This document shows positions 35,052 to 38,490 of a stretch of 40,171 nt of DNA, in pieces. The translations under genes were made by a program, and so were the position numbers. The stretch comes from a virus. The notes under the pieces are model-generated. The model saw only the letters and a list, made by a program, of their open reading frames with translations, was not told the DNA's origin and did not search any database. Position 1 is the first letter of the stretch. Each line of letters starts with the position of its first letter. The stretch lies in the IMG/VR virus record IMGVR_UViG_3300042376_000521, positions 1-40,171 of that record. The stretch is one strand, 5' to 3'.

Positions 35052-35254
35052 TGCTCGGTCTCCTGCTCTAATTGGGAAGCGATCTTGTCAGCCCACGCCA
35101 TCAGATCACGAACGCGAACCATCTGGCTGCCATCTTCAGGACCTTCAATGACACGCCAATGGTATGACGAGGTGTCCCTGATGGCGTTCTCTATGACAGC
35201 GCGAATCAGTTGAGCGCTAGTGGCGTGAAATTCTTGAAGCTTGGAATCAGTCAT
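35048..35254 (-). CDS. Small hypothetical protein
   Basis: 68 residues from ATG 35254, overlapping the second paralogue's stop by 8 nt. MTDSKLQEFHATSAQLIRAV, IENAIRDTSSYHWRVIEGPE, RVRDLMAWADKIASQLE: helical. Unknown function. Its start context (GATGACTGA) matches that of the gene following the first paralogue, so gene-pair duplication is likely. Confidence 0.6.
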   Translation of the reverse strand: MTDSKLQEFHATSAQLIRAVIENAIRDTSSYHWRVIEGPEDGSQMVRVRDLMAWADKIASQLEQETEQ

Positions 35255-35591
35255 CGAGTTGCTCCAAGGCGCGGCGGATGACTGCCATGGCCGTTTGATC
35301 ATCCGTACCTGCTTCAACAACGGCCCAAGCCTGTAGTGCTCGATCCTTCAAGCTCGGCGGCTTGGGGCGGCGGGCGGTACGAAGATCTTCTACAGCCTCG
35401 TGTTCGTATTTGAACCACCCTTCGCTGACCAGCCACTCACAGCACGCATCCAGCTCTTGGTCGGCGCCCCATTGGGCGGCTTTGGCGCAAACAGAGAAGA
35501 ACCAGCGTGGAGATGATTTGATTTCTTCTCCGTCTTCATAGCACCATTTGCTCACCAGCTCCCGTGACGGGGTGATGGGGTGCTCAGTCAT
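35247..35591 (-). CDS. Paralogous early protein, copy 2
   Basis: 114 residues from ATG 35591. MTEHPITPSRELVSKWCYED, then AKAAQWGADQELDACCEWLV, ARRPKPPSLKDRALQAWAV and IRRALEQLDD. It shares the N-terminal, central and C-terminal blocks with the protein at 34485-34817, with DNA nearly identical over the SLK and AAQWGADQELDACC regions. The conserved ends with a variable middle suggest a common scaffold with changing specificity, but the function is unknown. Confidence 0.7.
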   Translation of the reverse strand: MTEHPITPSRELVSKWCYEDGEEIKSSPRWFFSVCAKAAQWGADQELDACCEWLVSEGWFKYEHEAVEDLRTARRPKPPSLKDRALQAWAVVEAGTDDQTAMAVIRRALEQLDD

Positions 35592-35715
35592 GCCGCACCA
35601 CCTGCTGCGTGCCGGAGTGGGTGGGCTGGTGGTGAGCACCGGATTCAATGCCGATCATGGCGAACACGGCCGCGGCGATCAGCAGGCAGATGGCGTTGTT
35701 GATGTGGTTGATCAT
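35584..35715 (-). CDS. Small single-span membrane protein
   Basis: 43 residues from ATG 35715. MINHINNAICLLIAAAVFAM has one membrane helix, followed by a polar His-rich tail (GAHHQPTHSGTQQVVRHD). It overlaps both neighbours (4 nt upstream, 8 nt downstream). Together with the upstream membrane-HTH protein it may form a membrane unit; that is inference. Confidence 0.55.
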   Translation of the reverse strand: MINHINNAICLLIAAAVFAMIGIESGAHHQPTHSGTQQVVRHD

Positions 35716-35906
35716 GATGCGAGCGCCTGACGGACGCGGTGACGGGTGGTGTTGAGGCGAGTGGCGATCTGTCGCTGGCTGAGACCCGTGCGACGCAGGA
35801 TGCGAACGCGGCGAGTTTCTGATGCGGTCAACCAGTCGATCACTGCCACTACGAACAGCAGCGGCAGGATCAGCTTCCAGATCACCAGCAGGGTTGCGGT
35901 GAGCAT
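35712..35906 (-). CDS. Membrane-anchored helix-turn-helix protein, first gene of the leftward early operon
   Basis: 64 residues from ATG 35906. One membrane segment at about 3-24 (TATLLVIWKLILPLLFVVAV) leads through WLTASETRRVRILRRT into a C-terminal HTH, GLSQRQIATRLNTTRHRVRQ. The HTH resembles Hin/resolvase-type DNA-binding helices. A DNA-binding domain tethered to the membrane could link phage DNA to the host envelope or sense membrane state. A candidate promoter with GTATTGTG lies about 33 nt upstream. Confidence 0.65.
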   Translation of the reverse strand: MLTATLLVIWKLILPLLFVVAVIDWLTASETRRVRILRRTGLSQRQIATRLNTTRHRVRQALAS

Positions 35907-35938
35907 GGCTGTGTTGCGGTGCCCGGTTGGGCGTCCCC

Positions 35939-36000
35939 GTATTGTGCCCTGCCCGCGGTTCACCCCGCCAACCGCTGTGACAGTTCTTCACACTGCGTTG
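35939..36000. promoter_or_regulatory. Control region of the leftward early operon
   Basis: GTATTGTGCC at 35939 nearly matches GTATTGTGGCC at 38491, the operator-like site before the recombination operon; on the reverse strand both read CACAATAC and may contain the -10. ACCCCGCCAAC at 35962-35972 matches 31659-31669. TGTGA-N7-TCACA at 35976-35992 is a dyad, followed by CGTTGCTACC. The shared parts suggest common regulators for at least three early promoters. Confidence 0.4.
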
Positions 36001-36215
36001 CTACCCACGGCCAGCTCCACCGGCACGCGCAGCACAGGCATGGACTTGCCGCGGCCGCGCGACCAGCCGATCACCGCCACGCTCACGGGCAGTTCCACCG
36101 TGTACCAGACGTGCCCGCAACCCACACACCGCCGTTGCCGCGTGATCTGATGCGATTCCTTGCCGTTGGTACACAGCGCTCTAATCTCATCACCACCGCA
36201 ACGCGGGCAATCCAT
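35988..36215 (-). CDS. Zinc-ribbon protein, NrdR-N-like
   Basis: 75 residues from ATG 36215, where the zinc ribbon begins. MDCPRCGGDEIRALCTNGKE, then ITRQRRCVGCGHVWYTVELP holds Cys3-x2-Cys6 and Cys30-x2-Cys33. This matches the N-terminal zinc ribbon of NrdR (CPxCG, IRRRRxCxxCG, F/WxTxE), which binds DNA, but lacks the ATP-cone. The C-terminus is a short strand-rich extension (VAVIGWSRGRGK). It may be a phage transcription regulator. It is divergent from the NblA-like gene with a 36-bp gap. Confidence 0.7.
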   Translation of the reverse strand: MDCPRCGGDEIRALCTNGKESHQITRQRRCVGCGHVWYTVELPVSVAVIGWSRGRGKSMPVLRVPVELAVGSNAV

Positions 36216-36251
36216 AGGTATCCTGCAGAAGTACACCACCACTATGGCACC

Positions 36252-36476
36252 ATGAACTTCGGGCAGTGGATGGCTGTCGAGCTATCAGCAGAACAGCAGT
36301 TCGAGATCGAAAAACAAGCCCGCGCCTTGCTTCAGAGCAAAGACGCGGGCGCTTTGGCTGCAGCTCTCCTCAAACAGACCTGCTACCAGCAGCAGCTGCT
36401 GCAGCAGGCCGTCAACGAGATCGCTCGCCTTGAATGCGAGCTGATGGGCTTCCCTAGAACAGATCGGCCTCGGTGA
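36252..36476 (+). CDS. NblA-like small helical protein (tentative)
   Basis: 74 residues from ATG 36252; upstream in-frame starts overlap the Zn-ribbon gene. MNFGQWMAVELSAEQQFEIE, KQARALLQSKDAGALAAALL and a final helix QQQLLQQAVNEIARLECEL form two helices. The (L)S-x-EQQF-x-I start, an acidic turn and LxxxLxxQ...LL pattern resemble cyanobacterial NblA, a phycobilisome-degradation adaptor also carried by some cyanophages, and NblA-like proteins of picocyanobacteria. NblA's C-terminal motif is not evident, so this is tentative. If right, the phage would dismantle host light-harvesting antennae to release amino acids or shift energy flow. It is convergent with, and overlaps, the gene at 36454. 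Confidence 0.45.
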   Translation: MNFGQWMAVELSAEQQFEIEKQARALLQSKDAGALAAALLKQTCYQQQLLQQAVNEIARLECELMGFPRTDRPR

Positions 36477-36780
36477 ACTCGCTCACCACGCCATCGGTTG
36501 CAGTGGCCAGGCTCTGAGCGGCGCTCTGTGCGGTCACAGGCGGCACCCAGTCACGCGGCGGCTGAGCCACAGCACTCACATACGCCAGCCCCTTCTGGCT
36601 GGTCTTCTTCCATCCGCTGATCGGCACCTGTACCGAGCCGTACTGATCCGGCGTCTGGCTGAGCACGAAAGCACAGAAGGCGTCTAGCTCCTCCACTTTT
36701 ACATTCATCATCCCGCTGAAATCGACCTTGCTCTCGGGCTTGGTGCTTTTAAAAATGCTCAGATTTAGCTTGAAGGTCAT
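36454..36780 (-). CDS. Possible ssDNA-binding protein of the recombination module
   Basis: 108 residues. The N-terminal part reads as beta strands (TFKLNLSIFKSTKPESKVDF, YGSVQVPISGWKKTSQKGLA, YVSAVAQPP), then a disordered linker and an acidic, aromatic end EFTEADLF. That ending resembles the acidic hook of SSB proteins. It is the last gene of the exonuclease-annealase operon, a usual place for a phage SSB. No clear OB-fold family match by eye. Confidence 0.45.
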   Translation of the reverse strand: MTFKLNLSIFKSTKPESKVDFSGMMNVKVEELDAFCAFVLSQTPDQYGSVQVPISGWKKTSQKGLAYVSAVAQPPRDWVPPVTAQSAAQSLATATDGVVSEFTEADLF

Positions 36781-36783
36781 CGG

Positions 36784-36969
36784 TCAATCGTGGGTAATGG
36801 TGTTGGCCTGTTCGTATTGCTCCACCTCGGCCAGTGGGTAGAGCACGAATCCAGGTGTGCGGAAATAGGTAGGACCTTTGCCCGCCTTACGCCATCGCAT
36901 CAGCGTGTCAGGGTGCAAGCCCCATCGCTTCGCCAGTTGAGGCGCTGTCAAATACTCAGAAGAGCTCAT
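36784..36969 (-). CDS. Excisionase/AlpA-type helix-turn-helix protein
   Basis: 61 residues from ATG 36969, which overlaps the RecT-like stop by 14 nt. YLTAPQLAKRWGLHPDTLMR, WRKAGKGPTYFRTPGFVLYP and LAEVEQYEQ match the MerR-like winged HTH of AlpA/Xis family proteins (HTH_17). With no integrase seen, a role as transcription regulator of the early region is more likely than excision. Confidence 0.85.
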   Translation of the reverse strand: MSSSEYLTAPQLAKRWGLHPDTLMRWRKAGKGPTYFRTPGFVLYPLAEVEQYEQANTITHD

Positions 36970-37633
36970 CCTGATCAACCTCCTCTGTGACGACAACAGG
37001 CGTAGGAGCTGGTGCCGGTTGAGCAATGGCAGCATTCAGATCCGCCACGCTGGTCTCGGTCACCGTGACGGGCTCCACGTCGACCACCTCCTCTTGGCTT
37101 TGCATCCCAAGCAGCAGATCGCTGGCATACAGACGGCCCCAAAAGGCCGCGGCCCGGTAGCGGATCATCAACTCGGGCATCGTCACCCACTTTGATCCCG
37201 ATTTCGTGGCCCAGCCCTCTTTGCGGGCCATGGCCATCGTGATCGTCGGGCCCTTCAATTCCTGCTTGCTGGCGAGGTCAGTAGCGACCGCATAGCAGGC
37301 CAGGCTGTCGCCTTCACCGCTAATCTCAAACCGCAATGGGCTGAACCGGCCGCAGCCATTGACCATCGCAATGATGAAACTGCTGCTCCAACTGGGGCGG
37401 CCGTGGATCACGTGCAGGTGCTGCATTGCCAAGAAGGGGCTGATGCCCATCCGGTTGGCGATCTCAAGCGCTACCAGGCAGTTGGCAAAACCCTGCTGCC
37501 CTTGGAACTGAGGCGGGATAAGCGTACTGCTGGCCAGTGCCTTGGCGATCCGTTGGGCATCCTCGAATGCTTGGATGCCGCTGAACACTGAGCCACCGGG
37601 CTGCGTGGTGGCTAGGGCTGTGGTCTGTTCCAT
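36956..37633 (-). CDS. RecT-like single-strand annealing protein
   Basis: 225 residues from ATG 37633; the longer upstream frame overlaps the exonuclease. FEDAQRIAKALASSTLIPPQ, NCLVALEIANRMGISPFLAM, QHLHVIHGRPSWSSSFIIAM and the later ARKEGWATKSGSKWVTMPEL, MIRYRAAAFWGRLYASDLL match the RecT family core. The acidic, Pro/Val-rich C-terminus ends DQDELF. It anneals resected strands after the exonuclease cuts, driving recombination-dependent replication or mosaic exchange. Start overlaps the exonuclease stop (TGATG). Confidence 0.88.
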   Translation of the reverse strand: MEQTTALATTQPGGSVFSGIQAFEDAQRIAKALASSTLIPPQFQGQQGFANCLVALEIANRMGISPFLAMQHLHVIHGRPSWSSSFIIAMVNGCGRFSPLRFEISGEGDSLACYAVATDLASKQELKGPTITMAMARKEGWATKSGSKWVTMPELMIRYRAAAFWGRLYASDLLLGMQSQEEVVDVEPVTVTETSVADLNAAIAQPAPAPTPVVVTEEVDQDELF

Positions 37634-38472
37634 CAGTAGGTTTCGATTTCGGTGGTCTGCTGTTGCTGGCCGGCCTGGCCGGTCATCCATGCCGGCAGGC
37701 TGATGGTCTCGATCTGATCGCTGTAGCTCGGCCAGTGATCAGCGGCCTTGCAAACCGCCAATTTCGCCAAGTCGCGCATCGCCTGATCGTGACCGCGATC
37801 GATCATTTCCGCATCGGCGGCGTAGACGGCGCAGGCGTAAGGCGCAGTGGATTCCACACAGATGAAGATGAACTGATCGGGCCGGCGCCCGGTGGCCTGT
37901 TCAAGCCCGTGCAGATACCAAGCGGCCTGCTTCTGGTACGAGAAGTTGGCGATGCTCTGTTTGAAGCCACGCGGGCTTGCATCCTTGGTGGTTTTGAGAT
38001 CCACCACGATGCTGCCGTCATCCGTAAGCCAATCCGGGCGGCATTTGCACTCAAGCCCGGTGCTGGCGTCCGTCCACATGTGCGTGGTTTCGGCCTTGCC
38101 CGGCAGGCCCAGCAGCATTGCTGCAGCAGGGTGACGCAGCACTGCGCGACCCATCGCCATGACCTGCGCGGCATCGTCGGCGGTGATCACGGCTTTGCCG
38201 ACTGAGCTGGCCTCAAATGCTGCCCACTGTTCGCGGCCTTCCTTGGTGCGGCGGTTGATGTCACTGGGCGCCACAGCAATCTCCTCATCCCACCTGCTCA
38301 GCTCAAGCACGTGCGTGTGCAGCGCAGTGCCAAGACGCATCTGCGGGCTGGGCTCTGGCGCCACCCGATTGGGGTCCAGATACCGCGCCCAATAGTGCAG
38401 CGGTGATCTCGCGATGAGATCCAGATGAGACTTTGAGACAGCGGGATGCGCGTGATACGCGGTGTTGTCCAT
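37633..38472 (-). CDS. RecE-like PD-(D/E)XK exonuclease
   Basis: 279 residues from ATG 38472 (a TTG at 38484 would add four). SKSHLDLIARSPLHYWARYL near the start, MRLGTALHTHVLE (the GxxxH motif), then LECKCRPDWLTDDGSIVVDL with KTTKDA holds the Asp...Asp-x-Lys catalytic core. Later TSYQKQAAWYLHGLEQ-type helix (FSYQKQAAWYLHGLEQATG) is the family's Q-x3-Y motif. Family: phage RecE/DUF3799-type exonuclease, which chews double-strand ends to feed RecT. First gene of the leftward recombination operon. Confidence 0.9.
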   Translation of the reverse strand: MDNTAYHAHPAVSKSHLDLIARSPLHYWARYLDPNRVAPEPSPQMRLGTALHTHVLELSRWDEEIAVAPSDINRRTKEGREQWAAFEASSVGKAVITADDAAQVMAMGRAVLRHPAAAMLLGLPGKAETTHMWTDASTGLECKCRPDWLTDDGSIVVDLKTTKDASPRGFKQSIANFSYQKQAAWYLHGLEQATGRRPDQFIFICVESTAPYACAVYAADAEMIDRGHDQAMRDLAKLAVCKAADHWPSYSDQIETISLPAWMTGQAGQQQQTTEIETY

Positions 38473-38490
38473 AGATGGTGGCAACTGCAG

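Follow-up and report, generated by a model that had tools for sequence, protein, structure and literature searches.

Our leading reading, held tentatively, is that a small gene in the viral DNA analyzed here (the window, all 40,171 nucleotides of IMG/VR virus record IMGVR_UViG_3300042376_000521) is a phage member of an NblA-like two-helix family of picocyanobacteria, encoding an NblA-style ClpC adaptor with the phycobilisome as its most likely target. An earlier note, made from the sequence of the window, had proposed an NblA-like phycobilisome degradation protein, and that proposal stands in part. A distant family kinship emerged through a bridging family of cyanobacterial proteins (A6) and through the register of the predicted helices, whereas the Pfam NblA family (PF04485) went unmatched and the probability of a direct profile match with NblA fell from 59 to 21 when the alignment was broadened. 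Phycobilisome degradation by this protein is plausible, and a role as an antenna-dismantling adaptor is the leading candidate for its function.

Is the open reading frame at 36252-36476 a gene, and how widely is it kept? A profile-guided search found relatives encoded in 281 IMG/VR stretches, and the top 80 were retained. Among 57 distinct sequences of 65 codons (the window and 56 relatives), differences from the window sequence numbered 478, 69, and 1095 at codon positions 1, 2, and 3, and the median dN/dS to the relatives was 0.079 (56 comparisons). The frame is a genuine gene under strong conservation, far exceeding chance, and its translation gives the 74-residue product with LSAEQQFEIE that the earlier note had described. 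The terminase of the window, nearest to those of S-CBS3 (48.6% identity) and S-CBS1 (47.8%), has 305 relatives; a family-profile search found the gene once in each of the 14 contigs of at least 38 kb among the 80 of these that were retained. The gene thus belongs to the core of its clade, with no patchy distribution, and resembles a core gene more than an accessory one, which counts against the earlier suggestion of an accessory gene. The close clade accounts for four of the 14 long contigs and a sister clade for the other ten, in which EIPPEK or DIPPEK stands where the window clade has ELSxEQ (the sister-clade motif reads EIPPEKQF).

Table 1. Features of the NblA-like gene and its surroundings, in window positions
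Feature	Position	Strand	Basis or remark
NblA-like gene, 74 aa (P0001)	36252..36476	+	3' end overlaps convergent gene 36454-36780 (-)
N-terminal segment, residues 1-10 (MNFGQWMAVE)	36252..36281	+	W6, M7, and V9 invariant in a 14-row alignment including KBS-S-2A and S-CBS1
LSAEQQFEIE, residues 11-20, NblA-like start of helix 1	36282..36311	+	Translation and alignment
Predicted helix 1, residues 13-27	36288..36332	+	AlphaFold model; NblA control model
Predicted helix 2, residues 32-65, rich in invariant positions (KQ..YQQQLLQQAVNEIARLE)	36345..36446	+	Alignment and AlphaFold
Divergent partner, NrdR-like zinc ribbon (PF22811), 75 aa	35988..36215	-	Pfam 28.5 bits vs. cut-off 27.2
Conserved block GTACACCACCACTATGGCAC, candidate promoter/operator of the divergent pair	36231..36250	+	Ends one base 5' of the start codon; putative function

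The setting of the gene is much as the earlier note had it: the neighbors named by family searches, from 35247 to 38484, run leftward with the NblA-like gene as the rightward one among them, and a zinc-ribbon gene does lie beside it, diverging 36 bases upstream. The zinc-ribbon gene passes the PF22811 cut-off in the window and in one relative; a divergent zinc ribbon accompanies the NblA-like gene in 80 of 80 close relatives, and the zinc-ribbon pattern was found in 12 of the 14 long contigs (four from the close clade). Between the two genes lies a conserved block, from which GTACNCCNCCACTATGGCAC occurs a single time within the window. A scan with the block and the start codon matched 77 IMG/VR stretches once apiece; an NblA-like protein follows in 76, and the 77th leaves its contig after VNFG. 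In the sister clade (loci L504-L513) an inverted repeat of the type GGGGCA...CGCCCC, seen by eye, precedes the gene in place of the GTACNCC block of the window clade, as though the operator had been swapped. Both elements resemble control sites, and we infer such a role for them. A sigma-70 scan near the gene gave nothing promoter-like, and no NtcA site was found at the gene by eye. On the other side, the convergent gene at 36454-36780 (-) encodes a 108-residue protein, with neither a Pfam match nor a clear PHROG match, that ends in an acidic tail (EFTEADLF) and adjoins RecT and exonuclease genes; it may be a single-stranded DNA-binding protein.

Relatives also occur in isolated phages. Remote homologues are genes annotated as hypothetical in the Synechococcus siphoviruses KBS-S-2A (host Synechococcus WH7803) and S-CBS1 (host Synechococcus CB0201), the two that matched among 15 cyanophage records searched with the family profile. 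A more distant copy is carried by the marine virus AG-345-A17, which scores 22.2 bits on the family model, a score that none of 500 shuffles reached. A genome-contig profile search with alignment A1 found no relatives. PHROGs gave a weak match to phrog_17576, a family of unknown function (11 of 31 members, best E 0.003), and a PDB sequence search with the window protein gave one match, at chance level. The earlier note had also held that such a gene would tie the genome to a phycobilisome-bearing host, which fares both ways: the isolates in which homologues of the window family occur have Synechococcus hosts, but the wider host family described below is also found in the Prochlorococcus phage PSS2.

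How close is the protein to NblA itself? By Pfam it does not belong to canonical NblA: PF04485 (cut-off 25 bits) matched neither the window protein, nor five relatives, nor the whole records of six relatives, and searching the window protein and its relatives against Pfam and NCBIfam likewise gave no NblA match. Scored directly on an NblA model, the window protein reaches 9.8 bits, a value equalled by none of 500 shuffles; on the same model S-SCSM1_237, a published NblA, scores -0.8. The KBS-S-2A copy alone is not above chance, since 36 of 500 shuffles equalled its NblA score and one reached 14.2 bits. In reciprocal searches, 21 of 25 NblAs scored above 99% of shuffled sequences on the phage-family model, as did 48 of 52 phage proteins on the NblA model. 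A direct profile–profile comparison of the window family with NblA gave a probability of 59 (0 of 200 column shuffles as good), and the same comparison with a 62-sequence alignment that included the sister clade gave 21, a value that 1 of 150 shuffles reached. We therefore regard the direct link as suggestive but short of secure. In the profile–profile tests with 200 shuffles, the shuffling was done on match columns; a preceding hhalign test had one outlying shuffle, with a score of 134.8. The phycobiliprotein-binding positions of NblA, which we take to be L51 and K53 of the Nostoc protein, align with A53 and N55 of the window protein and so appear not to be kept, although the alignment of helix 2 is uncertain.

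A firmer link runs through cyanobacteria with small genomes. Across 386 cyanobacterial genomes, the phage-family profile gave 119 matches at E ≤ 1, the best of which (to E 3.8e-6) fall in small genomes; 14 weak matches (E 0.07-1) lie in frame on genes among those listed for Pfam NblA, and a reversed-profile control gave 44 matches, none on the listed NblA places. The A6 family was built as an alignment of small-genome cyanobacterial proteins picked via the phage alignment A3. A search with it found 119 members in 38 of the 386 genomes, all of 1.7-3.7 Mb—a count that enters six loci fetched twice only once and leaves out two matches (E 0.007-0.009) in two larger genomes, judged to be chance. 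Each genome has one to seven paralogues (loci L201-L220 and L315-L419). We take these genomes to be picocyanobacterial because they are small and because a record note likens PSS2_gp049 to WH7803_0965. PSS2_gp049 itself (L221:1483-1710), from a Prochlorococcus siphovirus, is a clear member of the family (E 9.8e-13).

The A6 profile also finds phage genes already linked to NblA. It matches S-SCSM1_237, annotated as "phycobilisome degradation protein (nblA)" (E 5.7e-7), and an unannotated S-TIM5 gene (E 4.2e-6), as well as genes of PSS2, KBS-S-2A, and S-CBS1, the last two matches being partly circular because both sequences were among those in A3, from which A6 derives. In profile–profile comparison, the window family matches the A6 family with a probability of 96 (z 17.5; 0 of 200 column shuffles as good), a test that is partly circular because the A6 proteins were chosen by a phage profile, and the A6 family matches NblA with a probability of 94 (z 13.2; 0 of 200 column shuffles as good). 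Comparison with NblA-like proteins of picocyanobacteria, the second profile search that the earlier note had called for, came out in its favor. Both the similarity beyond chance and the recovery of published phage NblA homologues by the A6 profile place the window protein with this family, and its distant kinship with picocyanobacterial NblA-like proteins is well supported by the sequence comparisons. In the podovirus S-CBP1, a gene annotated as hypothetical (S-CBP1_0019; L242:682-909) has a longer frame that contains TELKMEQQFKLRQIE and weakly matches Pfam NblA (E 0.0012); its annotated start lies within the motif.

Predicted structure points the same way. The sequence and the predicted models give the window protein the combination that we used as a criterion for NblA, a hairpin whose helix 1 opens with LSxEQxF. 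An AlphaFold model of the window protein has helices at residues 13-27 and 32-65 (mean pLDDT 81), and a control model of Nostoc NblA has a pLDDT of 79; in both, a 15-residue helix 1 straight after "LS" is followed by a short loop and a long helix 2. The two-helix pattern claimed earlier is thus recovered as a prediction, in the same register as in the NblA model. Neither Foldseek nor VIA-align listed an NblA chain for the window model, but since none was listed for the Nostoc NblA control model either, structure searches of the PDB have no power here.

Do all members of the A6 family go with phycobilisomes? By counts of PF00502, 31 of the 38 genomes have 7 to 19 phycobiliprotein genes and the other 7 have two. 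One group within the family, group 1 (motif AWxxQxA), is present in 31 of 31 phycobiliprotein-rich genomes and 0 of 7 poor ones, a split that counts as a lead, since groups 1-5 were defined post hoc, after most sequences had been viewed, and the seven genomes may be one clade. The seven poor genomes have one A6-family copy apiece, none of them group 1 (the regular expression for group 2 placed L216, from one of the seven, in "other"), and this presence of the wider host family alongside just two phycobiliprotein genes counts against the NblA reading. Of the groups, group 1 ranks first by median score on both the NblA and the phage-family models (12.8 and 15.0 bits), and among four group models the window protein scores best on group 1 (23.4 bits). 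Taken alone, group 1 matched the broader phage alignment with a probability of 89 and NblA with a probability of 92 (0 of 150 shuffles as good in each), the latter over an alignment of just 26 columns around LSxxQxF. The pattern across genomes suggests that group 1 may act on phycobilisomes while other A6-family members do something else.

That last possibility extends to the window protein. It might be a family member with another job: a core early gene whose product, a two-helix adaptor or regulator, acts on something besides the phycobilisome in the service of phage transcription, recombination, or host takeover. Presence in all 14 long contigs, linkage to the zinc ribbon in 80 of 80 relatives, convergence on recombination genes, and the phage sigma factor that adjoins the homologue in KBS-S-2A and S-CBS1 would all fit such a role, as would the single non-group-1 copy kept in each of the seven genomes with two phycobiliprotein genes, which indicates that some members of the host family probably have another role. 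The best score of the window protein, however, is on group 1, seen only in phycobiliprotein-rich genomes, and we regard this alternative as unlikely though worth taking seriously.

The similarity to NblA could also be accidental: the protein would then be a helical hairpin of other descent, its LSxEQQF helix cap having come to resemble that of NblA by chance or convergence. Two-helix proteins do match easily by chance, as the best KBS-S-2A shuffle illustrates, and both the Pfam misses and the weak direct match on the broader alignment are in keeping with this idea; but the link to the picocyanobacterial family beats every shuffle with both alignments, and 14 in-frame coincidences with NblA genes stand against 0 for the reversed profile, which leaves accident improbable. 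We give a similarly low, if anything very slightly higher, probability to an anti-adaptor: a phage protein that pairs with the NblA-like proteins of the host, stopping antenna degradation or diverting it, so that light harvesting continues during infection. The one to seven host paralogues per genome would offer partners, and the title of a reference cited in PMC7966870 describes a heterodimer of NblA1 and NblA2 from Synechocystis; against the idea, PMC9602691 reports phycobilin loss for the phage NblAs tested to date.

How would an adaptor of the NblA type work in infection? Starting from the gene itself, its conservation, its picocyanobacterial kinship, and its predicted hairpin, we infer the further steps by analogy with NblA, which is described in part of PMC7966870 as a ClpC adaptor whose structures are four-helix bundles of dimers. 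The phage protein would be made early in infection and would dimerize into a four-helix bundle, and the dimer would bind a host protein and deliver it to the ClpC chaperone-protease. With the phycobilisome as the most likely target, infection would take the antenna apart or cut it back, freeing amino acids.

Phage NblA is known in freshwater cyanophages and predicted in marine podoviruses and myoviruses, according to excerpts of PMC9602691, which report an NblA homologue predicted in S-SCSM1 by HHpred, further homologues in S-TIM5 and 14 cyanopodoviruses that Nadel et al. predicted, and phycobilin loss caused by phage NblAs tested in cyanobacteria. Cyanosiphoviruses have a symbol of their own in the legend of Figure 5 there, which shows that the dataset already included some siphovirus sequence. 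In titles and abstract openings returned by literature searches, no KBS-S-2A or S-CBS1 gene was found named as nblA; the available portion of PMC3751600 names just three host-like ORFs in KBS-S-2A, with the NblA-like gene not among them, and the row for the S-CBS1 group in a table of PMC5332604 is without nblA. On the host side, extracts of PMC7439483 describe a divergent nblA-like gene in Synechococcus WH8102, citing Nadel et al. 2019, and Prochlorococcus as lacking nblA, and part of PMC6337551 describes one Synechococcus strain whose genome lacks nblA, leaving its phycobilisome degradation unexplained. It is conceivable, though doubtful, that a widespread clade of Synechococcus siphoviruses made antenna dismantling a core early function, with a divergent NblA that faces an NrdR-like zinc-ribbon gene, is expressed from a conserved control site of its own, and works or pairs with the multicopy NblA-like proteins of the host, and that group 1 is the long-missing picocyanobacterial NblA. 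If the core gene of these siphoviruses is indeed NblA-like, antenna control would be a basic part of infection there. The group 1 host proteins are direct candidates for a role in phycobilisome degradation such as that of the strain in PMC6337551.

Compared with known systems, the window protein shares with canonical NblA (PF04485; PDB 1ojh, 2q8v, 3cs5) the LSxEQQF helix start, the length and register of helix 1, and the predicted hairpin; the NblAs of Ma-LMM01 and PaV-LD score 52.0 and 45.4 bits on PF04485, whereas the window protein has no match. With the A6 family and the cyanomyovirus NblAs (S-SCSM1 ORF237 and S-TIM5) it appears by profile to share the same domain, and the latter two are, like the window family, small and found in Synechococcus phages. 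The window family differs from both in an extra N-terminal WMxV segment, in a conserved helix 2 ending I..LE, and in its location in siphovirus relatives, where it is core in its clade. Closest among isolates are the orthologues CPKG_00010 of KBS-S-2A and gp26 of S-CBS1 (45% and 39% identity in the alignment): where the window has a zinc ribbon, they adjoin a sigma factor and a small leftward gene of another kind, but they share the N-terminal WMxV and, as in the window, a convergent gene lies immediately downstream.
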